This document shows positions 26,458-43,772 of a stretch of 64,000 nucleotides of DNA, piece after piece (within the stretch, counting starts at the first letter, position 1; each line of letters starts with the position of its first letter). Where the stretch lies: positions 372,001 through 436,000 of the forward strand of contig NZ_JASJOU010000003.1 in the NCBI RefSeq assembly GCF_030068605.1. The letters run 5' to 3'. The notes under the pieces are model-generated. The model made no database searches. It saw nothing but the letters and a program-made list of their open reading frames with translations, and was not told the DNA's origin. The stretch comes from Xanthocytophaga agilis (GTDB lineage: Bacteria; Bacteroidota; Bacteroidia; Cytophagales; 172606-1). The translations under genes were made by a program, and so were the position numbers.

Positions 26458-26840
26458 AGTATTATTGGTTTGAAAATACTTCATATCAGCTAGAGATTCA
26501 CTCATCGTTCTGTCAGAATAAACACAAAGAAATACACAATGTTAAGACAGGAGAAACCTCATTAGACTATCAGTTTGTTATACTCTACCGTTCGGCCAAT
26601 TATTCGACAAACTAGTCTGACGAGAAAACTACGGCGATTATCGATCAAAAATGTCTGATTGTATAATAATGGCACAGATTAAGGATGAACGGTAAAGATG
26701 ACTTAGTTAATTCGCACTTTTTCACGTTATTTGAGTAAGGTGCTTTACCGCTACAACCATACTTTTCAGCTAACGTATACATTGTCCTTACTATCATTGA
26801 GTATCTATCTGATATCTTACAGATAGAATTGCCTGGGTCT
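26458..26840. other. intergenic region between divergent receptor and sensor kinase
   Basis: Up to 383 bases separate the receptor gene and the kinase at 26841, and both promoters must lie here. It is AT-rich; no clear promoter pair, RNA gene or perfect inverted repeat was recognised. A LytTR-type direct repeat may be present but cannot be assigned by eye. Confidence 0.35.
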
Positions 26841-27878
26841 ATGCAATCATTGAATCAACACAAACGTGTCCTCTTAATGCACTTATCATTCTGGTGCATG
26901 TATCTTTCATTTTTTAGTTATCAGCTTAGCTTTTACCAGAAAGACAATATTAACTGGCCACGATTCCTGACCATTGTAGCCATACAACTGATATTTACGT
27001 CTATTCCAGCCTATATAAACTATTTCTTTTTTCTTCCGAGGTTTCTGGAGCAAAAAAAAGCAGGAAAGTATTTGCTGGGATTTTTGTTGCCGTTTGCCTT
27101 ATTATATATCATCAGGATGTATACAGAACGTTATTTGCTGGACGGATTCACCCACAAATATGAGTATCTGTATGGTCCCCGGTTCATAATCCAGACTATT
27201 GTAGTCACGCTTTTTATTACTGTTTTTGTGGCTATGCTGCGTTTTGCCATTGAGTGGTTTGAACTGGACTCCAAAAAGAAATCTATTGAAAATGAGAAAT
27301 TATCCGCAGAATTACGCTTTTTAAAAGCCCAGATTAATCCTCACTTTCTCTTTAATACACTCAATAACCTCTATTATCTTGCTTTTACTCAATCTCCTAA
27401 TACAACAGAAGTCATTGCCAAACTCTCACAGATGATGCGCTACATGATCTACGATTCCAATCACCCGCGTGTGATGTTAAGTAAAGAGATTGAGTATATG
27501 GAGAATTATATTAGTCTGGAGAAACTCAGATTGAACAATCAGATTCCTATTCATTTTGAAGTGCATGGTACCACCGGACATGTACTGATTGTGCCCTTGA
27601 TTCTGATTACATTTCTGGAAAATGCATTTAAACATGGTGTCAGTAATAATAACCCTGAGGCCTGGATCAATGTAAAACTGGAACTTCAGGGTACAGAATG
27701 CGTTTATATTGTAGAGAACAGTAAATTACCTGACAAAACGCTGAAGCCAGAGAAATCCGGGATAGGCCTGCAAAACGTCCAGCGACGATTAGACCTTAGC
27801 TATCCGGAAAATTACAGTCTGAAAATAACAGACACATCTGATCGCTACCGGATTGAACTTAAACTGAATGCTGCATGA
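26841..27878 (+). CDS. LytS-like sensor histidine kinase
   Basis: 345 residues from ATG 26841 (a TTG at 26829 would add four). Four membrane helices lie within about residues 8-135. The kinase part has H-box LKAQINPHFLFNTLNNLYYL, N-box TFLENAFKHGVSNN and G-box SGIGLQNVQRRLDLSYP. It overlaps the response regulator by 4 bases (ATGA), so the pair is translationally coupled. It is a paralogue of the kinase at 20854. Its position divergent from the receptor gene suggests that it may control it; this is inference. Confidence 0.93.
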   Translation: MQSLNQHKRVLLMHLSFWCMYLSFFSYQLSFYQKDNINWPRFLTIVAIQLIFTSIPAYINYFFFLPRFLEQKKAGKYLLGFLLPFALLYIIRMYTERYLLDGFTHKYEYLYGPRFIIQTIVVTLFITVFVAMLRFAIEWFELDSKKKSIENEKLSAELRFLKAQINPHFLFNTLNNLYYLAFTQSPNTTEVIAKLSQMMRYMIYDSNHPRVMLSKEIEYMENYISLEKLRLNNQIPIHFEVHGTTGHVLIVPLILITFLENAFKHGVSNNNPEAWINVKLELQGTECVYIVENSKLPDKTLKPEKSGIGLQNVQRRLDLSYPENYSLKITDTSDRYRIELKLNAA

Positions 27879-28618
27879 ACCTGACTTGTGTTATAGTTGA
27901 AGATGAACCCCTGGCTCGCAATCTCCTGACTCAATATATTCATAAGGTTTCGTATCTTACACTGGTACATACCTGCTCCAATCCTATGGAAGCACTTGAA
28001 TTTCTGAGAGATAATAAGGTAGACATATTATTTCTGGATATTCAGATGCCTGAAATAACAGGCATTTCTCTTCTGAAAATTCTGCAAGTAAAGCCCTTGG
28101 TGATTCTCACTACTGCCTATTCTGAATATGCATTGGAAGGATACGAACTGGATGTGGCAGATTATCTTCTTAAGCCCATCACCTTTGAACGTTTTCTGAA
28201 AGCAGCAGAAAAAGCGGCGGGTCGTCTTACAACACCTAGTCAACAACAGCAGACAGAAACTTTACCTGATAAGCCATCTTCTGAACCTGCTTCGCCTTTT
28301 ATATTTGTAAAAGATGGGACAAAGCTGGTCAAAATCCGTCTACAAGATATTTTATATGTAGAAGGGTTAAAAGATTATGTAACCATCCACACCCATCATC
28401 AGAAAGTTGTGAGCCTGCAAAGGCTAAAGTCACTGGAAGAGCAGCTTCCACAGGATCGTTTTCTTCGTGTACACCACTCATACATTGTAGCACTGGAAGG
28501 AATTGACGCAATTATGAAAGAGAAAGTTCAGATTGGCAACGCCCTCATTCCTATTGGCGACACCTACCGGAAATCATTTAAAGAGTTTATTGAACGTAAT
28601 CATTTGCAGTCAGATTAG
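27875..28618 (+). CDS. LytTR-family response regulator
   Basis: 247 residues. The receiver domain has acidic VEDEP, phospho-acceptor Asp55 in LFLDIQMPE, TTAYSEYALEGYE and Lys in YLLKPITFERFLK. A Gln/Pro/Ser linker (about 120-145) leads to the LytTR DNA-binding domain, with ILYVEGLKDYVTIHTH and RFLRVHHSYIVALEGI. Its start overlaps the kinase stop. It differs from the paralogue at 20070 mainly by the longer linker. Confidence 0.94.
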   Translation: MNLTCVIVEDEPLARNLLTQYIHKVSYLTLVHTCSNPMEALEFLRDNKVDILFLDIQMPEITGISLLKILQVKPLVILTTAYSEYALEGYELDVADYLLKPITFERFLKAAEKAAGRLTTPSQQQQTETLPDKPSSEPASPFIFVKDGTKLVKIRLQDILYVEGLKDYVTIHTHHQKVVSLQRLKSLEEQLPQDRFLRVHHSYIVALEGIDAIMKEKVQIGNALIPIGDTYRKSFKEFIERNHLQSD

Positions 28619-29586: not shown

Positions 29587-31359
29587 ATGGAAAACTCTAT
29601 TTTTCAGGTCAATTTATCTGGAATCTTAAAAGTATTATCTGACAGCTTATACAGTAGCTGGGAGGTATTTATCCGGGAATTATTACAGAATGCCAATGAT
29701 GCTATTACTGCCCGAAGCCTGAAAGAAAGTTTTAAGCCAGTTATTGAAATCGACTTTTTTGAAACAGGTACATCCAGAGTGTTGCAGATCAAAGACAATG
29801 GTATTGGTCTTACAGCAGACGAGATGACAGAGTTTCTGTCTAAAATCGGCTCCAGCTCTAAAAGAAACACATCCGATATGTTTGATCGTGAACAACAGTC
29901 GTTTATTGGTCAGTTTGGTATTGGGCTTCTCTCCTGCTTCATGGTCTCTGAAAAAATCGAAGTAGAAAGCACAGCATGGAATAGTACCTCAACTATGCGC
30001 TGGATTGGCAATACCGATGGCACCTATGCAATAGAACCAACAGATTATAACGGATATACAGGCACTAAAGTACGCCTGGCAATCAAGAAAGACATCGCAC
30101 TTACGTCTGACAAGCTAACCTTTCTACTTCATAAGTACGGAGATTATCTACCTGTACCTATAAAATATTCATACAATGCCGGCTCTGAGATTACTTTTCA
30201 AAAGGAATTTCCATGGCTTACCCGTTCTACGGGTAGTGAAGCGCTCATGCTAGGTAACCGTGTATTTGGAGAAAGGTTTTCTCATTATTTTCCTATTCAG
30301 GATAGCAAAGGACAAACACAGGGTTTAGCGTATGTCCTGCCTCATCGCACACATACAACCAGTGTCAGCAAACATGTACTGTACGTCAAACGCATGTTTA
30401 TTTCTGACTCTTGTGGAGACATCTTACCTGATTGGGCCTTTTTTGTACGGGCAATTCTCAATTCAGATAACTTAAGCACGACAGCGTCCCGTGAAGATAT
30501 TTACCATAACGAAATACTTGAGGAAGTACGTGAATCGTTGGGTATCAGTATTAAGAAGTATCTAAAGAGATTAGGCGATTCAGATCCGGAAGCTATGCAG
30601 GAAATTATCGTTACCCATGCGCAGGCATTGAAGTCACTGGCATTGGAAGATGATGATTTCTTTGCTTTTATCAAAAACTGGTTCATATTTCCGACCACAC
30701 AAGGTGATCTTTCCCTAAAACAGATCCAGCAACAATCCAGCTCTATTCTTTTTGTTTCTGATCTGGACGAATTCCGGCAGATTGCTCCTATTGCCAGAGC
30801 CAACAACCAGCTGGTAATTAACGCAGGATATATTTATGATACCCCAATTCTTTTAAAGTTACAGGAGCGGGATCATACAGGAAAGACTCGCCAGATCAAT
30901 CCGGAATACTTTGGCAATATTCTCAACGACATTGATATTGAGATCTACGATCTTATACGTAAACGCATTGATGTGCTTCAAGCTATTCTGATTGAGTTTG
31001 ATGTAGAACTGGACATTAAAGCATTTTCACCGGAGCATGTTCCAGCCATGTTACATATGTCACAGGATGCCATTCAGAAAAGAGATTTTAAGAGCATCCG
31101 TGACGAATCAGATAGTTTATGGGCTGGTGTTTCAGATGCCATACTTGACTTTGACCCGGGATTTCGGGCTAAATTATTTCTGAACTATAAAAATGAAATC
31201 GTAAAGAAGCTTTTGTATACGGAAGCCTCAAAGAAAATAGATCCTTATATACAAATGCTGTATTTCAATGCCCTGATGATGGGTCATTATCCATTGTCCG
31301 GCAAAGAACTGGATCGTATGAATGAAAACATCATGATACTACTTAACACCAATCTATAA
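29587..31359 (+). CDS. HSP90-family ATPase (non-canonical HtpG homologue)
   Basis: 590 residues, somewhat shorter than HtpG. The GHKL ATP site is intact: N-box FIRELLQNANDAI (Glu and Asn for Mg and catalysis), G1 box IKDNGIGLTADEM, and lid/G2 box GQFGIGLLSCFM. The middle domain keeps LYVKRMFISDSC and the catalytic-loop Arg region LSTTASREDIYHN. The N-terminus FQVNLSGILKVLSDSLYSS differs from true HtpG and resembles a separate bacterial 'HSP90 family protein' group. HSP90 proteins are ATP-driven clamps that remodel clients. A helical-repeat gene follows after 3 bases, suggesting a dedicated partner or co-chaperone. Confidence 0.9.
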   Translation: MENSIFQVNLSGILKVLSDSLYSSWEVFIRELLQNANDAITARSLKESFKPVIEIDFFETGTSRVLQIKDNGIGLTADEMTEFLSKIGSSSKRNTSDMFDREQQSFIGQFGIGLLSCFMVSEKIEVESTAWNSTSTMRWIGNTDGTYAIEPTDYNGYTGTKVRLAIKKDIALTSDKLTFLLHKYGDYLPVPIKYSYNAGSEITFQKEFPWLTRSTGSEALMLGNRVFGERFSHYFPIQDSKGQTQGLAYVLPHRTHTTSVSKHVLYVKRMFISDSCGDILPDWAFFVRAILNSDNLSTTASREDIYHNEILEEVRESLGISIKKYLKRLGDSDPEAMQEIIVTHAQALKSLALEDDDFFAFIKNWFIFPTTQGDLSLKQIQQQSSSILFVSDLDEFRQIAPIARANNQLVINAGYIYDTPILLKLQERDHTGKTRQINPEYFGNILNDIDIEIYDLIRKRIDVLQAILIEFDVELDIKAFSPEHVPAMLHMSQDAIQKRDFKSIRDESDSLWAGVSDAILDFDPGFRAKLFLNYKNEIVKKLLYTEASKKIDPYIQMLYFNALMMGHYPLSGKELDRMNENIMILLNTNL

Positions 31360-31362
31360 ATA

Positions 31363-32463
31363 ATGAGTTACTCACTGGAAACTCTTGAGGAAGTACAAGA
31401 GGTAGTTGATATTCTGTCCTATGGTAAAGAGTCTGAAGAAAATGAAAAAATTCTTCAGAAATGCATTCAAAAAGCACAGTTCTTCAAAGACAAAGATCTT
31501 GAATTTGAGGCTCGTATTGCTTATATCAGACAAGTAACCTGGTTACACAAACCAGATAAAACCATAGCTATTTTTCCGTGGTTGCTAAAACGAATGGATG
31601 AAGGTCACAACAAGAATCATCAGTATTCTGTTTTATGGATGTATAAGTGGGTCATTATAAAGCTGCCATGTTATGCGTCTGTCTCCTTACAGCAAATAGA
31701 AGACTTGCAACAGGATATGGAAAGGCGTTTTCTGGACTATGGTACAGGCACACGCATAATAGATTACTTCCGGATGATTGTCTATGCTCATCTCGGGAAC
31801 CTTTCCAAAGCACAGGAGCACCTGAAAAACTATCTTCAGGATACCAGCAGCTGTCTGCTGGATGATTGTGACGCCTGTCAACCAAACAATGTGCTGGATA
31901 TCTATTTGAGTTTACGGGATTATCCTGCATTCCTGCATACGGCTCAACCATTGTTAAATGGTACCAAAAAGTGTAAGGAAGTACCTGATTATACCTATTC
32001 CAAAACTGCAATGGTAAATTTGCTATCTGGCAATACAGAGGTAGCAAAAGATCATGCTATTCTGGCCCGAAAGAAAATTCCGCTTACCAGTGCAGTACTG
32101 AAAGAAATGGGGTATCTACTGACATACTATGCACTCACAGAAGACTTCATAAAAGGTCGGGCGGTCATTGAAAAACAAATTGGATTTTGCACTAATACCC
32201 AACCTGAAGCCTATCGCTATCAATTTCTTTTGGGCTTTCTTCTTTTTATGAAAGCCTTACAGAAAGCAGGCAAAAAAACGATCAAGCTTAAAGTGCCAAT
32301 TGCAGATGTACAGCCAATCGAAGAAGATACGTATGAAGTAGCCTCCCTGATCACATGGATTGAAGGACAATGTCAGCAGATTGTGCAAAAGCTGGATCAA
32401 CGCAATGGAAATACATTTTATTCAGAAGATATGACCTATTATCTTTCTCTTATTCAGAACTGA
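31363..32463 (+). CDS. helical-repeat (TPR-like) protein paired with the HSP90 homologue
   Basis: 366 residues, cytoplasmic and almost entirely helical. Repeating pairs of helices such as FRMIVYAHLGNLSKAQEHLK, MVNLLSGNTEVAKDHAI and LLTYYALTEDFIKGRAVIE match the A/G/Y spacing of TPR-like solenoids. A Cys-rich turn (CLLDDCDACQ, about residue 165) may bind metal or form a structural loop. Only 3 bases separate it from the HSP90-like gene, so it is co-transcribed. TPR proteins often dock on HSP90 C-termini, but the usual MEEVD tail is absent here, so any contact would differ. Confidence 0.75.
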   Translation: MSYSLETLEEVQEVVDILSYGKESEENEKILQKCIQKAQFFKDKDLEFEARIAYIRQVTWLHKPDKTIAIFPWLLKRMDEGHNKNHQYSVLWMYKWVIIKLPCYASVSLQQIEDLQQDMERRFLDYGTGTRIIDYFRMIVYAHLGNLSKAQEHLKNYLQDTSSCLLDDCDACQPNNVLDIYLSLRDYPAFLHTAQPLLNGTKKCKEVPDYTYSKTAMVNLLSGNTEVAKDHAILARKKIPLTSAVLKEMGYLLTYYALTEDFIKGRAVIEKQIGFCTNTQPEAYRYQFLLGFLLFMKALQKAGKKTIKLKVPIADVQPIEEDTYEVASLITWIEGQCQQIVQKLDQRNGNTFYSEDMTYYLSLIQN

Positions 32464-35882: not shown

Positions 35883-36539
35883 ATGAAAACAGTAACATTA
35901 ACAGACTTTATTACAGACCTCACCCAACAGGGAAATGTTACTGTAAATGCAACGATAGAGCCTTTTAGTGAAATAGAAAAACAGGAAGCCTGCCAGGTTT
36001 TGGAGCAATACTATGCAACAACACTGGTAGACATACCACATACAGCACCAGCCTTCTTGCCTGAAGCTGCCTTGTGGGGAGCTATGCTTATTTATCGGGC
36101 ATGTCAGTCTATTTTGTTGCGCCATCTTACAGAGAGTCAGGTTAGAACCTATCTCTTACCTTATTCAGGCCCTCCTTCAGCAGAGGCCATCTACTCTATT
36201 GATCTGACATTGCGTTTCCTGCCAGACCTCATGCATTTTGCCAAAGGTCTGTCGCCTGATGATGTACTGGTACAACTTCTGCGAAATACAGCACAATCCT
36301 GGCCGTTTTCTTCTGTAGGAGTTGATATTGAGGAAAATTCAGATCATACTACGTTTATCCGACTACACCCTTCCTTAAAATATACCTATGTGGATCGTAT
36401 CATTCAGAAACGTGATCACAAACGACTCACACATCCTGAATTGTATGATCTGGTAAAGGCGGCATTGGGTATACACGCAGACCGTTTCTGGCCAGAACTC
36501 AAACATGTAACAAAAGATCTGACCCATATTGAATATTAA
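35883..36539 (+). CDS. small component of the MoxR-vWA-beta-propeller system (bpX-like)
   Basis: 218 residues, soluble, no signal peptide. A mostly helical first part (EALWGAMLIYRACQSILLRH-like, about 55-85; LTLRFLPDLMHFAKGLSPDD, about 110-130) precedes a shorter mixed part (SWPFSSVGVDIEE ... DRIIQKRDHKRL). It is the first gene of a tight rightward operon and is followed by the MoxR ATPase after 72 bases. That position is filled by bpX-type accessory proteins in the predicted MoxR-vWA-propeller ternary systems, and its style agrees, but the exact bpX family cannot be assigned without a profile search. Confidence 0.65.
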   Translation: MKTVTLTDFITDLTQQGNVTVNATIEPFSEIEKQEACQVLEQYYATTLVDIPHTAPAFLPEAALWGAMLIYRACQSILLRHLTESQVRTYLLPYSGPPSAEAIYSIDLTLRFLPDLMHFAKGLSPDDVLVQLLRNTAQSWPFSSVGVDIEENSDHTTFIRLHPSLKYTYVDRIIQKRDHKRLTHPELYDLVKAALGIHADRFWPELKHVTKDLTHIEY

Positions 36540-36611
36540 CACAAACAGGGCATTCGTATCTATACAATCCCTGCACTATTTATTCCAAACATTATCATCC
36601 TACAAAACTTC

Positions 36612-37775
36612 ATGGAAACCAGTACAGAAAAAGACCTTCTGCTCATTGATAAACTAAATCAGGTATTACAACACGTTAAGAACACCTTTGTTGGAAAAGA
36701 TAACATTATTGATCTGATGGGAATCTGCCTGGCTGGACGTGAAAACTTATTCTTACTAGGCCCTCCAGGCACGGCAAAAAGCGCCATGGTGCGTGAATTA
36801 GCCAAGCTGCTGGATGGCAAAACATTTGAATATCTCCTTACCCGGTTTACAGAACCTAATGAACTTTTTGGGCCATTTGATATCCGCAAACTTCGGGAAG
36901 GTGATCTGGTAACCAATACAGAAGGGATGCTTCCGGAAGCCTCACTAGTCTTCCTCGATGAGTTATTGAACGCTAACAGTGCCATTCTTAATAGCTTGCT
37001 GATGGCACTGAACGAAAAAATATTTCGTCGGGGACGGGAAACCAAACATTTACCTGCTCTGATGTTTATAGGTGCCAGTAACCATTTACCAGAAGATGAA
37101 GCCTTACAGGCTCTCTTTGACCGTTTTCTGATCCGGGTTCGGTGTGATTATGTAGATCCTAAATTATTAAACGAAGTATTGCTGGCAGGCTGGCAACTGG
37201 AACGTAAATCGGTAGATAATCCTCCCAGAATTACTACTGATGAAGTAGCTCAGCTTCAATATCTGACAGCACAGGTGGACTTACATGAAATTCGTCCTCT
37301 GTATATTGATCTTATACAGAAACTACGAAATGCGGGACTTTCTGTTTCTGATAGACGGGCAGTAAAACTACAGCGGCTTATAGCTGCCAGTGCATTATTG
37401 TGTAAACGCACCAAAGCACAACCATCTGACTTTTGGGTGTTACGTTATATCTGGGACACAGAGGAACAGCAGGAAATTATAGCTGGTATCGTTAATTCTG
37501 TAGTAGAGGCAGATCCTGAAAAATCAGAATCTCATCCTCAGGCACACATCAATGCCATTCCCAATGCGGATGAGTTGTATCAGGAAGTAGTAATATTAAT
37601 GGAAAAGTGGGATAAACCAGAAACCTCGTTACCTGATCGTACAGTAATTAAAGACAGGCTTCGTTATCTGAATGGACGTTGTGAATGGCTTACCAATGAA
37701 GAACAACGAAAATATGTCCAGCAAAAAATGGACGAACTATGGAAAAAGATTCTGCATACCGGGGAAAAAGCATAA
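36612..37775 (+). CDS. MoxR-family AAA+ ATPase
   Basis: 387 residues. The AAA+ core is complete: Walker A GPPGTAKS (50-57), the MoxR/RavA-type RFTEPNELFGPFDI (about 79-92), Walker B SLVFLDE (111-117), sensor 1 IGASN (about 153-157) and arginine-finger region LFDRFLIRV. A helical lid (SDRRAVKLQRLIAASALL) and an extra C-terminal about 50 residues follow. MoxR ATPases act with vWA proteins to remodel or activate targets using ATP. The vWA protein (38536) and propeller proteins downstream complete a ternary system. Confidence 0.95.
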   Translation: METSTEKDLLLIDKLNQVLQHVKNTFVGKDNIIDLMGICLAGRENLFLLGPPGTAKSAMVRELAKLLDGKTFEYLLTRFTEPNELFGPFDIRKLREGDLVTNTEGMLPEASLVFLDELLNANSAILNSLLMALNEKIFRRGRETKHLPALMFIGASNHLPEDEALQALFDRFLIRVRCDYVDPKLLNEVLLAGWQLERKSVDNPPRITTDEVAQLQYLTAQVDLHEIRPLYIDLIQKLRNAGLSVSDRRAVKLQRLIAASALLCKRTKAQPSDFWVLRYIWDTEEQQEIIAGIVNSVVEADPEKSESHPQAHINAIPNADELYQEVVILMEKWDKPETSLPDRTVIKDRLRYLNGRCEWLTNEEQRKYVQQKMDELWKKILHTGEKA

Positions 37776-37829
37776 ACTGATTTTTTGATTCAGCAACAAG
37801 TGCAGATAACAATGCCTATTCGTTAAACT

Positions 37830-38549
37830 ATGAAAGAGCAAATCCTGGTCTTTAACCATACAGATAAACAAACTCTGGGAGCAGTCCGGTGTATTCCCGG
37901 CTTACGCGCAGCAGAAAATGGAGATCACATATGGCTCCGTGGTATAGTTGTAAGTGAGAAGATAGACATACGCATACGGCAACTTCCGGCTTTACATACC
38001 TATTTCCTGGATGAACGAAATCGTTTGTTTCCTGCTGGTGGGGTAACGCCAACAGGTACCTTACCATCTTTATCCTGGCAACCTCTAACTACATTTATTT
38101 CAGTAGAGTTGCCAGTGTCTGTATTACCAGGGAAGTTTCAAAGACCACACATTGCCCAGCTTGTTGCCTCTGGACAGGAGAAACCAGGGGCTGCTCTACT
38201 CGTTTCTTTAGCCACCTGGAAAGCCTATGCTGAAACAGCACCTGAGATTCGCCTTCAACAGGTACGATTTGCCGTCTCAGAAAAAGAGGAGGTATTTATT
38301 ATAGGTGATTTACTACCTTCCATTCCGGGTAAGGAATACTGGAGGCACAATACCTTACTAGTACCCTCCGGATATGATTTTGATCCTCCACTGATAACTG
38401 ATATTATTGAAAAGAAACTTAATCCTCAAAAAGGAAATTTACTTGTATTTCATTCAAGTGACGAGTGGGAACTTATTCCACTATCCTGTTTTGTACCAGC
38501 AACCCGTAGTGCCATCCGATTAACACAAGTATCCCATGAAACTAAATAA
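37830..38549 (+). CDS. bpX-like accessory protein of the ternary system
   Basis: 239 residues, soluble, mixed beta/alpha. Visible features are GDHIWLRGIVVSEKIDIRIR near residue 35, an aromatic LPALHTYFLDERNRLFPAGG segment, PSLSWQPLTTFISVELPVS and a C-terminal helix pair. No catalytic motif is seen. It lies between MoxR and the vWA-propeller gene and overlaps the latter by 14 bases, so the products are made together. Gene position and size fit one of the bpX families of MoxR-vWA-beta-propeller systems; the specific number is not assignable here. Confidence 0.65.
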   Translation: MKEQILVFNHTDKQTLGAVRCIPGLRAAENGDHIWLRGIVVSEKIDIRIRQLPALHTYFLDERNRLFPAGGVTPTGTLPSLSWQPLTTFISVELPVSVLPGKFQRPHIAQLVASGQEKPGAALLVSLATWKAYAETAPEIRLQQVRFAVSEKEEVFIIGDLLPSIPGKEYWRHNTLLVPSGYDFDPPLITDIIEKKLNPQKGNLLVFHSSDEWELIPLSCFVPATRSAIRLTQVSHETK

Positions 38550-40935
38550 CCAGATCATTGCCTTTCAGGATTATTTCTGTCCTCCCCAGCAATATTTCTG
38601 GCACTGGGCAGAGAATGGTCAGATCATGGAGTGGCAAAATGGTACTACGATTTGCTATCGGGAAGATCTGTCAACTATCATGACTGACATACAGTTGCTG
38701 GGGCTACCTCCCTTAGGTTCAATATTGCTTGTACTGGCAGCTTGTCAGGATACCTGGTTTGCCTCAACGGCTAATTTGGAAATGTTGTATGCCGTAAAGA
38801 ATGCCTTACTGGAAAAAGAAAAGCACAATCCTTTACTCAAAGATATTGATCCACTTCTGACAGGAGTAACCAATCTGCTGGACAGAATCAGTGAACTACC
38901 CAAAGAATTTCGCAGTGGCACAGCACGTACACATCTGCTCCAGGTCATCTTTGAAACATCTCAACACAAAACAACCCAACAACAGGCCAAATCACTAATC
39001 AGCGAGTGGGAAAGCGGACGGTTAGATGGGTTAATACTTTTTCAGACAACCAAATCTATCACTTGTCAGCATTTTATTGCAGATCTGAAGAATCTCTATG
39101 CGGTTTCAAAAGTTTATGAGACTACAGATCAGCTCAGACAGAAGCTTCGGACAGGGATATCGACGCTTCCGATGCCACCTGAGGTTCTTCCTCCATTGGA
39201 AGAAACCCGTACTCTACTGGAACAACTGGCAGATGATCCGGAAACAGAAAGTCTGAGCCGGCTTATCAAACGCCTGCTTGCTGTATTGCATATACCTATG
39301 CATTCACAAGATAGCAGTGACCAGCCTGTAGGTGGGGTAGCAGACATTACCAATCGTGGAAATTTTGATCGTCTTCTTTTAAGTGAACTAGCCAATGATG
39401 ATATTGTACTCATGGCCCGTTTAGCCAACAATGAAGCATTATACCTTAGAAGAGAACAACCACCTACACATCAAAATCCTGAGCGGATCATATTACTGGA
39501 TACAACCCTGAAACTATGGGGTACTCCACGTATTTTTGCGATGTCAGCTGCGTTGGCCTGTGTGGTTAATAATAAAGCACATGCTACTATAGAAAGCTTT
39601 GTACTGAAAGGCAAATCCTCTCTACCTATCGACCTAACGACAAAAGAAGGAGTTATAAGTGCGTTGGAGCATCTTGATCCTTCCTTACATTGTGGAGAAG
39701 CATTAACTTCTTTTCTTACTACACAAACCTTTAGTCAGGAAACAGAGAATTTCTTTATTACAACAGAAGAAACACTGAATGATCATACCTTTATAGCTCA
39801 TCTGGCTACCATACGACCATTGCTCAATTTTCTGATTACGGTAAACAGAAGTGGGGAACTTCAGTTTTTTGAGTTGATCGAAGGCAGAATGAAGTTACTA
39901 AGTAAGGCAAAGCTGGATATGGAAGAAATATTATTTCCTTCTGCCAAAAAAACAAAACCAAGAACAAAGCATATATCCTCTGAATTTCCGGCATTCCTTC
40001 AGGAAGAAACCGCACCACTTCTCTATCCCTCTTTAAAAGTAAGAGTATCTCAATCTCATGCGTTTGATGTTGATCCTACAGGATTGTTGTGTGTTACCAC
40101 TGATCAGCGATTGTTATATTGGTCAAAAGAAAAGACAGGAGCTCATGAATTATTAGAGTTTATTGAATCCGGAAGGTATACCTTTGGTCAAGGAGATGGC
40201 AATGTATACATTATGGTAGATAATTCGTCTGGTGTACAACTCTATTCTATCCATGGGAATCAGGTTACCCGTTTTGACTTTTCACATACAATCCAAAAAG
40301 CGGATGAAGTGCTTTTTGATCCAGAAACACTATCCAATTTTTACGTTACATTAGATACCAGCGCGTTTTGTATTAATGCCTTTGATGGAACAATCGTTTA
40401 CCAGAAACCTATGCTGGATGTCATCCAGAAAATAAAAAAGTTAAAAAGTGTAGCAAAAGAACCTTATCTGAAAAATATACATCAAAGCAATCAGTCAGGC
40501 TACCATGTATTAAGTCGTGTACAACAGGTGTATATCTCTGAAGGAAGTTTGTGCGTAGGGAATCACAAACTGGCCAGGCATCAAGTTAACTCTACACTGA
40601 AGTGGGTTGACTTTAAAGGGTATCATCCTGTAGATGAGGGGATAGAAATTAAACCACCAAAGATTTCCAATCCGAATCTGAAGTTTACCAGATATACATG
40701 GCCTGATGGAAGTTCTGTAGTCTTTGATTCGCGGGGCCTCCTTCATTTACAAAGCTCTGATCGTATTATCCCCAATGTGACAATTTTATTGATTATTAAC
40801 CGGCCAGTAGCCTGTTGGTCATCCGATGGGCAATGGTGTGGCAATGTTGAATTTTTACCTGATTCCACAAAAGCTATAAACTCAAATGAGTTTTATATCA
40901 AATACATTCAAACTTTTATTGATACCATTGGATGA
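38536..40935 (+). CDS. vWA and beta-propeller fusion protein of the ternary system
   Basis: 799 residues, no signal peptide. An N-terminal helical region (about 1-290) precedes a von Willebrand A domain starting ERIILLDTTLKLWGTPRIF (about 316-334). Asp322-x-Thr324 stands where the MIDAS metal site begins, but Lys replaces the third Ser/Thr. A beta-propeller (about 500-790) has blade-like repeats such as HAFDVDPTGLLCVTTDQRLL and GDGNVYIMVDNSSGVQLYS. This vWA-propeller fusion is the defining protein of the predicted MoxR-vWA-propeller systems. The stop overlaps the next start by 4 bases (ATGA). Confidence 0.85.
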   Translation: MKLNNQIIAFQDYFCPPQQYFWHWAENGQIMEWQNGTTICYREDLSTIMTDIQLLGLPPLGSILLVLAACQDTWFASTANLEMLYAVKNALLEKEKHNPLLKDIDPLLTGVTNLLDRISELPKEFRSGTARTHLLQVIFETSQHKTTQQQAKSLISEWESGRLDGLILFQTTKSITCQHFIADLKNLYAVSKVYETTDQLRQKLRTGISTLPMPPEVLPPLEETRTLLEQLADDPETESLSRLIKRLLAVLHIPMHSQDSSDQPVGGVADITNRGNFDRLLLSELANDDIVLMARLANNEALYLRREQPPTHQNPERIILLDTTLKLWGTPRIFAMSAALACVVNNKAHATIESFVLKGKSSLPIDLTTKEGVISALEHLDPSLHCGEALTSFLTTQTFSQETENFFITTEETLNDHTFIAHLATIRPLLNFLITVNRSGELQFFELIEGRMKLLSKAKLDMEEILFPSAKKTKPRTKHISSEFPAFLQEETAPLLYPSLKVRVSQSHAFDVDPTGLLCVTTDQRLLYWSKEKTGAHELLEFIESGRYTFGQGDGNVYIMVDNSSGVQLYSIHGNQVTRFDFSHTIQKADEVLFDPETLSNFYVTLDTSAFCINAFDGTIVYQKPMLDVIQKIKKLKSVAKEPYLKNIHQSNQSGYHVLSRVQQVYISEGSLCVGNHKLARHQVNSTLKWVDFKGYHPVDEGIEIKPPKISNPNLKFTRYTWPDGSSVVFDSRGLLHLQSSDRIIPNVTILLIINRPVACWSSDGQWCGNVEFLPDSTKAINSNEFYIKYIQTFIDTIG

Positions 40936-43772
40936 TACTCTCTCTAACCTATAACGAACATAGTCAGTATATACTGGGTGGAGCGTTTGTCCGTGGAACC
41001 ACTCCGGAAGAATGGCTGACAGAAATAAACCATTGGGAGATAGATCCTGATCAACTGGTATGTTTTATCATACCCGAAAGTATACGATCTGTACATCCTG
41101 CGGGACTTTTTGTAGTATTTCGAGGTAATCAATCTGCTAAACTGCCATATATCCGAAATCCTTATGGTGCATTAGCAGAGAAACTGTTTATTCCCATTCA
41201 ATCAAACTTGAGTCCTGCTATCACACCAGAAGAACTTCGTTCATTACTGGTATGGGATTATCAGGTATTTCATCCAGGTATTGGCTTCATTGGCTTTGAA
41301 AAAACAGATCAGATTGATCTGACAGATCTGATAGCCTATTCGTTTCCTATAGAAAAGGAATGGAACTTTGCCCACACCGGTGTCTCAACTTCTCCCCGAT
41401 TGCAACGAATCGGATTGCAGCAAATGCAGTTGGATGAACTTATGCAATCCTTTAAAGAGTCTGTCCAAGAATCTGTAGGAAGTAAGCCTATTCAAGAGTT
41501 GGCACCTTCAGCTCAAACCCCTGTTTCACAAACTACTAGTTTCTTATTAAAGCTCCTCATTGGTATTTTAGGAGTGATTATGGGTATTATTTGGGCGATT
41601 GTAAATGCTATTTTGAGTTTATTCCGCAAACTCTCACAAGCAGATCCGAACCAACCAGCTAAACCATCTTCAACCAAAACACGATCAGGATCAAGTGGAG
41701 CAGGTAGTTCTGGTGGATCAGGAGGTGGTATAGGCGCTTCTATTAGCAAGCTGATAGGAGGTATACAAAACTGGGCATCCGAAAAGCTGGAAGATCTCCA
41801 GAAAAAAAGAGAAAGCGAATTACAACGATTACTGCGGATGTTTGACGAAAATATGGAAGAAGCTTTGAAATATGCTATTCCTCTGGATGGAAACTATCAG
41901 AATAGAGGAATGGCACCTCCATCTTCCACACTTAGTCGCAGAGATACCAACTTCAGTCTCTCTGGTTTAGGCGGAGGTGGTCCTGTAGATGGGTGGAATG
42001 TAGATAACTACTATCAGGATTTACGTAGAAAATACCAGAATGCTGCCAATAAAGAAATAGAAGCTGGTGACTTCAAAAAGGCAGCCTATATCTATGCTCA
42101 TTTATTGGGTGATTACCATAGTGCAGCTAATACCCTTAAACAAGGTAAACACTTTCGTGAAGCGGCTGTTCTGTACAAAGATCATTTGAGAAATACTGCA
42201 GCAGCAGCTGAATGTCTTGAAGAAGGAGGTTTGTTTCATGAAGCCATTGATCTCTATGTAGAAATGAATCGGTTTGAAAAAGCAGGAGATCTGTATACGG
42301 TTCTGGAACAAAAAGATAAAGCAGATCAATTGTATGAACAATGTCTGGAACGATCATTACAGCAGAAAGACTATCTGGATGCCTCCCGACTTGCGCTTCA
42401 TAAGCTGGAATCCCCTCAACGGACAAAACAGATCTTACTGGATGGGTGGCAGGATTCTACTCAGGCTGAAACTTGTCTGCTTCAGTATACAGATCTGGTT
42501 GCCAAAACGGAAAAAGACCAGTGGGGCAAACACATGGAAGGAATCTATCAGCAGACACCTTCTAGTAAAAGAAATAGTTTACTTAATGTACTGACCCAGA
42601 CCTATCCTCAGTATAAGGATCAGGACAGCTCTGACATTTCTAAAAATATAGCTTTTACAATTATTAGTGAACAAGCGTCGGCAGGAAACACAACATCTCT
42701 AAACAAGCTAAAAACATTTGTTCCCAATGACCAATTACTGATTCCGGATACCAACCGATATATCCATCAGATCAGAACACAGCCTGTTATACCCAAACCT
42801 GCACCAACCGTATCCACTGTTCAGAAAGATACATTGGTCTCTACATTCAAACTGGTAAGTGATATTTCCTGGATTCAGGCAATTGCTTATCAGGATCAGT
42901 TTCTGGCCTTTGGTATTAAACAAAATATTCTCTATATCGCCCGCATCAGTTCAGAATTCGATATCGAGTACATTGTATGGAGTACTATTTCCAGTTCTCC
43001 AACCTATTTTAATCTGATTCATGATCCGGCATTTTCAAAATATGTTATCCTTCATACTGATTATACTCTTACTCAGAAACAAAAGGTGCTCTCTACCTCC
43101 ATGCATTTTCGGGATGAAATCAGTGTGTTACATCCGTCATTTCTACCAAATGCCATACATGGGATTTGCTTTAATGAAAGTGGAGAGGTAGTTATACTGC
43201 ATACTGTACATAGCAATGAAGTGCTAAGTACATATTCTATAGATGGAACCTTGTTGTCTACCAACAATACCCATCAGACCGATCAACAACCTCTTGCACT
43301 TATTCAACCGGTAAGAGAAATGATTTACAGAAAGGAGATGTATCATACAGCAGATGGTGAGTCGCTGATCCAGTTGATTCCTGACAGACATTTACGAATT
43401 GATTTAGGTTCACCTATTCGTAAAATGACTGCGACCAATCATCACACTGCCATTCGTTTTATCGTGAGTACAGAAGAAGGTTGTGTACTGATACGACATT
43501 CAATGTGGAAGATGCAGAAATCCAATGAGTTTTTTGCCAGAGGAAAGGACGTTCAGCATCTGTGTTACATTCCGGATAACTTTGTTATAGTAGCAGATTC
43601 ACAAATTGTAGAGGTATATACCATTACTCAGGATAATCCTAAATGCTGCCATACGTTTGAGGTTAAGCAGCCTATTGTCTCCATCTTGCCAGCAGCAAAA
43701 CGCAATCATTTTGTGGTAGTCACAAAGGCTGGAGAGATGCAGGTGCACAAAGCTAGTGCAGAGGATATATAG
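40932..43772 (+). CDS. membrane-anchored helical-repeat and beta-propeller protein (bpX6-like)
   Basis: 946 residues. Order of parts: an N-terminal bpX-like domain (about 1-165, with LLVWDYQVFHPGIGFIGF); one long or two short membrane segments (LLKLLIGILGVIMGIIWAIV, about 206-225); a Gly/Ser-rich linker (about 255-275); an amphipathic helical region; TPR-like repeats (about 360-500: AGDFKKAAYIYAHLLGDYHS, GGLFHEAIDLYVEMNRFEKA, EQKDKADQLYEQCLERSL); and a C-terminal beta-propeller (about 640-946). It is the last gene of the operon and probably holds the complex at the inner membrane. Assignment to bpX6 rests on architecture and context only. Confidence 0.78.
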   Translation: MILSLTYNEHSQYILGGAFVRGTTPEEWLTEINHWEIDPDQLVCFIIPESIRSVHPAGLFVVFRGNQSAKLPYIRNPYGALAEKLFIPIQSNLSPAITPEELRSLLVWDYQVFHPGIGFIGFEKTDQIDLTDLIAYSFPIEKEWNFAHTGVSTSPRLQRIGLQQMQLDELMQSFKESVQESVGSKPIQELAPSAQTPVSQTTSFLLKLLIGILGVIMGIIWAIVNAILSLFRKLSQADPNQPAKPSSTKTRSGSSGAGSSGGSGGGIGASISKLIGGIQNWASEKLEDLQKKRESELQRLLRMFDENMEEALKYAIPLDGNYQNRGMAPPSSTLSRRDTNFSLSGLGGGGPVDGWNVDNYYQDLRRKYQNAANKEIEAGDFKKAAYIYAHLLGDYHSAANTLKQGKHFREAAVLYKDHLRNTAAAAECLEEGGLFHEAIDLYVEMNRFEKAGDLYTVLEQKDKADQLYEQCLERSLQQKDYLDASRLALHKLESPQRTKQILLDGWQDSTQAETCLLQYTDLVAKTEKDQWGKHMEGIYQQTPSSKRNSLLNVLTQTYPQYKDQDSSDISKNIAFTIISEQASAGNTTSLNKLKTFVPNDQLLIPDTNRYIHQIRTQPVIPKPAPTVSTVQKDTLVSTFKLVSDISWIQAIAYQDQFLAFGIKQNILYIARISSEFDIEYIVWSTISSSPTYFNLIHDPAFSKYVILHTDYTLTQKQKVLSTSMHFRDEISVLHPSFLPNAIHGICFNESGEVVILHTVHSNEVLSTYSIDGTLLSTNNTHQTDQQPLALIQPVREMIYRKEMYHTADGESLIQLIPDRHLRIDLGSPIRKMTATNHHTAIRFIVSTEEGCVLIRHSMWKMQKSNEFFARGKDVQHLCYIPDNFVIVADSQIVEVYTITQDNPKCCHTFEVKQPIVSILPAAKRNHFVVVTKAGEMQVHKASAEDI

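Follow-up and report, generated by a model that had tools for sequence, protein, structure and literature searches.

A five-gene operon in a 64,000-nucleotide stretch of the Xanthocytophaga agilis genome (contig NZ_JASJOU010000003.1, positions 372,001 to 436,000; the whole stretch is called the window here) raises the question of what its products do together, and in particular whether they form a conflict or cell-suicide module, as has been predicted for such gene sets. Judged by their sequences, these genes make up a complete and canonical β-propeller MoxR–vWA ternary system as defined by Kaur, Burroughs, Iyer and Aravind (2020, eLife 9:e52696, PMC7159879; hereafter Kaur 2020, cited for the parts of the paper available to us), where the same gene set is subsystem 4. 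The locus is a textbook example of a system already known but uncharacterised; in itself it is ordinary, and the interest lies in the comparative data. The new lead is that in Flavobacteriales the operon adjoins RNA-repair genes.

An earlier note on this DNA had described five tightly packed rightward genes and assigned them to the bpX-type ternary systems, leaving the bpX numbers open. The open reading frame (ORF) list agrees exactly with that description, with ATG as the start codon of all five ORFs and spacings of 72, 54, -14 and -4 bases, and the profile search of each protein that the note had proposed supplied the numbers as 4, 2, 0 plus 1, and 3 (Table 1). All five Pfam matches lie far over their cut-offs and follow the canonical order, namely bpX4 (E 2.5e-66; 223.7 bits against a cut-off of 27), bpMoxR (2e-103), bpX2 (1.4e-72), bpX0 and bpX1 at the two ends of one protein (1.6e-29 at residues 36-203 and 1.2e-24 at 718-798), and bpX3 (2.2e-47 at residues 3-173). 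The bpX3 model is specific, matching none of 14 control genomes, and the bpMoxR model is not, since other MoxR genes exceed its cut-off in 12 out of 14 control genomes; the identification therefore depends on the whole gene set. The host genome (9.77 Mb) contains a single bpX3 gene, and its closest named relative among the matches listed is Xanthocytophaga flavus, whose MoxR is 99% identical.

Table 1 Genes of the operon, with positions counted from the first nucleotide of the window
Feature	Position	Strand	Family match or model
bpX4 protein, 218 aa, first operon gene	35883..36539	+	Pfam PF19920
bpMoxR AAA+ ATPase, 387 aa	36612..37775	+	Pfam PF20030
bpX2 protein, 239 aa	37830..38549	+	Pfam PF19918
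vWA-propeller adaptor, 799 aa	38536..40935	+	Pfam PF19915 (bpX0) + PF19917 (bpX1); AlphaFold2; Foldseek
Third component (bpX3 protein), 946 aa	40932..43772	+	Pfam PF19919; AlphaFold2; Foldseek

The same gene set recurs as a unit. One genome per species was scanned, and of the 174 matches obtained the best 80 were taken as loci. All five genes are collinear on one strand in 76 of these, with bpX4 upstream of MoxR, and the other four lack genes only past a contig end; the bpX homologues are thus not the scattered single genes that would have told against a system. The window's copy shows no departure from the published definition of subsystem 4. Both have a MoxR protein with the GXXXTAKS P-loop variant, two small linked proteins, a vWA component with a helical N-terminus, a propeller C-terminal to the vWA and a β-rich C-terminus, and a third component composed of a globular N-terminus, a membrane segment, tetratricopeptide (TPR)-like repeats and a propeller, and both are from Bacteroidota. 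The FtsH ternary systems (subsystem 3 of Kaur 2020) are described there with the same P-loop variant and a divergent vWA, and the bpX2 protein weakly matches their fvmX7 domain (0.0014, below the cut-off), but there is no FtsH among the five genes of the window.

The complete MoxR AAA+ ATPase expected from the sequence is indeed present, with Walker A (GPPGTAKS), Walker B, sensor 1 and the arginine finger all intact. The key residues of GPPGTAKS, F-x-DE-x-x-NA, GAS N and DRFL are identical in all 90 aligned MoxR rows (the window and 89 loci, a few of them duplicate records of the same genome). RavA is the nearest solved protein (E 2e-43 over residues 11-283) and the closest NCBIfam model (4.7e-52), at 177.7 bits against an equivalog cut-off of 681, and the partner of this MoxR, the adaptor, matches no vWA family in Pfam. 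This likeness would favour a housekeeping chaperone, unconnected with stress or conflict, that assembles a membrane enzyme or a surface complex in the manner of RavA–ViaA (Escherichia coli) or NorQ–NorD (Paracoccus). These systems share with the window a MoxR ATPase and a vWA-type partner, but the window's partner carries bpX0, a propeller and bpX1, and three further proteins are co-encoded. In addition, NorD keeps a DxSxS-T-D metal motif in the part of the published description available to us, whereas the motif of the adaptor is degenerate. The near-universal presence in one genus and the purifying selection reported below also suit a chaperone. However, no client gene adjoins the operon across lineages in the flanks compared, and the system is absent from most of the Bacteroidota sampled, so that any client would have to be lineage-specific. 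We consider a housekeeping chaperone improbable.

The fourth gene had been read as a vWA-propeller fusion, and its propeller part is supported. The AlphaFold2 model built on custom alignments (mean predicted local distance difference test (pLDDT) score 82.7, predicted template-modelling score (pTM) 0.44) has a helical bpX0 region at residues 36-203, a disordered stretch, a vWA-like α/β region at about 316-436, a β-propeller at about 505-717, and bpX1 at 718-798, which the last propeller strands overlap. The top Foldseek matches are β-propeller proteins such as BamB. With the whole chain, no vWA-named entry is among the 50 top Foldseek rows; the Pfam vWA models give no match, and a profile of the adaptor gives no signal against ordinary vWA sequences, the targets being single sequences only. 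We infer the vWA fold from the order of strands and helices in the model, the D-x-[S/T] motif and the definition of the family. In 36 adaptor rows picked from the window and the 80 loci, the first vWA aspartate, D322, is present in every row and is the sole invariant aspartate inside the vWA region; position 324 is S or T in 34 rows, at position 326, a serine in the classical motif, 35 rows have K or R, and residue 410 at the end of a later strand varies. As judged from this alignment, the metal site is degenerate: it reads D-x-[S/T]-x-[K/R] and not DxSxS. Two Chitinophaga adaptors (L059:11854-13647 and L060:11830-13638) are about 600 residues long, ~200 residues at the N-terminus (the bpX0 region) being absent; their operons are otherwise complete.

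The third component was modelled with a mean pLDDT of 83.0 and a pTM of 0.45; because pTM is low for both this protein and the adaptor, the arrangement of their domains is not predicted. Its model comprises a β-rich bpX3 region (1-135), a hydrophobic helix (about 204-235), a disordered glycine-rich stretch, a TPR-like solenoid (358-616) built from short helices, most of it at a pLDDT above 90, and a WD40-like propeller (about 630-940) that finds WD40-type matches in Foldseek (best E 4e-9, target TM up to 0.64). A sequence search of solved structures with this protein found nothing. The solenoid and propeller of the membrane-anchored repeat-propeller protein proposed earlier are thus borne out, and its anchor corresponds to one hydrophobic stretch (strongest at residues 209-227), which suggests that the protein may work at the membrane in X. 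agilis. No such span reaches the threshold in two of five other third components tested (L052 and L064).

Profiles of three parts of the third component were compared across the loci. The bpX3 domain and the solenoid are present in all 76 loci holding the gene (the solenoid being partial in L053), on separate genes in the Chryseobacterium-type and Epilithonimonas loci and in two Flavobacterium loci. The propeller was detected in 15 loci, is undecidable in L053, where the contig ends within the gene, and is absent from the other 60 of the 75 that could be judged. What stays constant in the third component is therefore a core of the bpX3 domain plus the solenoid. Both the missing propeller and the split genes differ from the published layout. 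Kaur 2020 suggests association via the two propellers; as a general mode of assembly, such homotypic docking is ruled out by the third components in which no propeller is detectable. One of the 15 propeller-bearing loci, that of Chitinophaga pinensis YS-16 (L061:14303-17098), was counted despite a broken frame, its bpX3 gene being four separate ORFs through either a broken gene or assembly errors.

The distribution of the operon bears on its role. In Chryseobacterium-type genomes bpX3 is close to universal, being found in 161 out of 173, of which 160 have a single match and one has two; the 12 genomes without it are 3.0-4.3 Mb in size. As a control, the type I restriction gene hsdR is over its cut-off in 71 of the same 173 genomes (106 at a loose threshold). 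The flanks are largely common within Chryseobacterium, within Flavobacterium and among nine Chitinophaga-type loci, though this does not hold for every locus of the genera. The two good Xanthocytophaga genomes have the operon at one and the same location; no bpX3 was found in a third Xanthocytophaga-type genome, which is 72% complete, and 2 of the 8 genomes of the window's family carry it, its own genome counted. Between the two Xanthocytophaga genomes, the ratio of nonsynonymous to synonymous substitution rates (dN/dS) is 0.054 for MoxR, 0.071 for bpX2, 0.096 for the adaptor and 0.079 for the bpX3 protein, and the neighbours measured range from 0.011 to 0.278. The bpX3 domain alone gives 0.124, and the fastest part of the adaptor, its propeller, 0.271; for bpX4 the changes are too few for its value of 0.304 to be judged (dS 0.007). 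The operon is under purifying selection in Xanthocytophaga, and no positive selection was seen in this comparison.

In Flavobacteriales, the operon lies beside genes for RNA repair. Twenty neighbourhoods were taken, for their long contigs, from the 161 Chryseobacterium-type genomes with bpX3. Their 20 kb downstream of the operon contain DUF458-type RNase H-like proteins (20 neighbourhoods), RNase T-type exonucleases (19), the cyclic-phosphate-processing receiver domain cREC (15), an Rnl2 RNA ligase (11), a metallophosphatase (11) and a TROVE (Ro) protein (7). The ligase profile T4_Rnl2_C has matches in 118 of the 173 genomes, in 117 of 161 with bpX3 vs 1 of 12 without (Fisher 1.4e-5). After 13 cases were dropped (six with the ligase on another contig and seven without a bpX3 position) and second, weaker matches in 27 genomes were left unused, the best ligase match lies 6.7-12.5 kb downstream of bpX3 on the same strand in all 105 same-contig cases. 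The Flavobacterium ligase is of another RNA-ligase family, a short one (RLIG1 profile, 4.9e-8), and lies upstream of the operon. Of the 16 genomes with bpX3, 11 have it, vs 8 of the 233 without (Fisher 6e-11), and in all 11 it is on the same contig and strand as bpX3 and within ~16 kb. SWIM zinc-finger and DUF6493-type genes directly adjoin the operon in a few Flavobacterium-type loci (L092 from 16361, L097 from 15974 and L044 from 13735) and also occur in the Chryseobacterium neighbourhood. Gene clusters for RNA repair with several of these families were reportedly described by Burroughs and Aravind in 2016. The parts of Kaur 2020 available to us cite Burroughs and Aravind 2016 and draw no tie between the propeller systems and RNA repair.

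That an intact MoxR, a vWA-propeller adaptor and a bpX3-solenoid protein are encoded together in a constant gene order is strongly supported by these data. What such a set does may be sought, with about an even chance of being right, in a machine near the membrane for AAA+ remodelling, which would serve a regulated response to damage or stress rather than act as an accessory, phage-triggered killer. By analogy with the mechanism published for NorQ–NorD, in which, in the part of the account available to us, a VWA finger lies in the hexamer pore and the linker is twisted, a hexameric MoxR would engage the vWA finger or linker of the adaptor in its pore, and ATP use would twist or stretch the vWA protein. 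The force might then be passed to the bpX3-solenoid scaffold, so that a bound target is remodelled at or near the membrane, with bpX2 and bpX4 as probable small dedicated partners. The purpose would be a regulated response to damage or stress, and this response would probably be coordinated with RNA repair in Flavobacteriales. We lean to damage or stress because the system is near-universal and largely fixed in place in one genus, and because it has two different placements beside RNA-repair genes. RNA damage is often caused by rivals or during phage defence, so the stress and conflict roles are not exclusive.

Several observations weigh against a damage or stress response. In a sample of the phylum, bpX3 is rare and patchy (10 out of 395 genomes, the window's genome counted). 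The components except MoxR diverge faster than most of the flanks compared, as is also expected of a conflict system: in Chryseobacterium, where MoxR is at 92% identity, bpX4 stands at 72%, bpX2 at 73% and the adaptor and the bpX3 domain at 69%, and three of four flanking families at 87-91%, the fourth, an exonuclease (5 loci only), being at 65%. In a MoxR tree of 42 out of 81 rows, made by a quick method with a midpoint root, the window groups with Chitinophagaceae, one Mucilaginibacter and two Saprospiraceae (support 100, group of 17), and the opposite half contains Emticicia, Pseudarcicella and two Cytophagales bins. This grouping suggests that the window's copy may have been acquired horizontally from another order. 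Its composition says little (39-42% GC for the operon vs a window average near 38%), because one bin without the operon also reaches 41%. The ligase statistics are uncorrected for shared ancestry, so that the linkage may amount to two events. An HMM (hidden Markov model) scan found no match to the RNA-repair families in the 64 kb of the window, and these families were not found in the flanks of Chitinophaga, Saprospiraceae, Emticicia and Epilithonimonas loci, of which ~9 kb before the operon and usually 4 kb after it were covered. The host genome has its RNA ligases on contigs C13 and C14, and the operon is on C3. Finally, no experiments on bpX systems were found in searches of the open-access literature. 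As a property of the window itself, the RNA-repair linkage was not found; the only match to the cyclic-phosphate domain in the host genome is below the cut-off, on contig C1.

The patchiness, the apparent transfer between orders and the fast divergence would each suit an anti-phage or abortive-infection module, in which an invader is sensed, MoxR and the vWA protein restructure the complex, and the N-terminus of the membrane-anchored bpX3 protein damages the membrane. Kaur 2020 argues for conflict from comparative genomics, reports an enrichment in multicellular bacteria (Table 1 there: 44 of 118 organisms, p 0.0094), calls the systems enigmatic, with no conventional effector visible, and proposes that the third component's N-terminal region, which is variable, might be the effector. 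In Flavobacterium, moreover, 16 of 249 genomes have bpX3, and one of these copies, with two in-frame stop codons (G798:C1:1530849-1531337), is apparently decaying. However, the bpX3 domain is not hypervariable among the relatives, unlike the published description. Its mean pairwise identity is 69% in Chryseobacterium (24 loci), 67% in Flavobacterium (19) and 42% in Chitinophagaceae/Mucilaginibacter (9), close to that of bpX4 (72, 71 and 47%) and bpX2 (73, 73 and 44%), which leaves a hypervariable bpX3 effector unsupported; its low dN/dS agrees. The most variable stretch is the membrane linker in Chryseobacterium and Flavobacterium (34% and 28%), which may be counted in favour of conflict, and the C-terminal propeller in Chitinophagaceae/Mucilaginibacter (18-24%). 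A conflict role also sits poorly with a largely fixed locus in nearly all species of one genus, with third components lacking a hydrophobic span by the threshold, and with the absence of a defence island, the neighbours tested being ordinary genes. PADLOC gave no match for three of the five proteins, and for MoxR (0.011) and the adaptor (0.039) only marginal matches, to unrelated models. The conflict or cell-suicide role repeated in the earlier note is a published prediction, and these tests lean against its simple form; we hold it to be possible, at clearly less than an even chance.

The damage or stress response can be stated more narrowly, as a membrane remodelling machine for RNA damage and not for virus conflict, which in Flavobacteriales would be inherited with and beside the RNA-repair genes and whose work the bpX3-solenoid protein would tether near the membrane. 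The families concerned would be RNA ligases, the cyclic-phosphate-processing receiver domain, RNase H-like and RNase T-type proteins, metallophosphatase, SPFH and Ro (TROVE). This narrower form, including the part given to these families, is a tentative proposal that we think is probably not correct as it stands.

Other features of the surroundings were recorded. One to three extra genes lie between bpX4 and MoxR in 11 Chryseobacterium-type loci (e.g. L093:7061-9347, L096:9260-9982, L107:9398-9976 and L128:922-2237). Those examined are of two repeated kinds, a DUF4919-like protein of ~193 residues and a membrane-type protein of ~240 residues without a Pfam match, and not diverse effectors, so that a variable effector slot at this position was rejected. 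In the window, a LytTR-type two-component pair (26829-28618) and an HSP90-family protein of the PRK14083 type (29587-32463; NCBIfam 7e-172, above the cut-off) precede the operon, and the gene three bases after the HSP90 gene encodes a 366-residue protein with no significant family match. In six Chitinophaga-type loci, a response-regulator-like gene and a gene for a membrane protein are found upstream (e.g. L062:6364-7140 and L060:7211-8224; clusters c36 and c37, identified by eye).

In summary, the role of this family is made testable. Experiments are better begun in a genus where almost all species carry a single copy whose position is largely fixed than in the patchy lineages, and the RNA-repair neighbourhood provides a concrete stress to try. 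The lack of the propeller in most relatives' third components removes one proposed general mode of assembly, and the degenerate metal site of the adaptor predicts that its contacts would be independent of metal.

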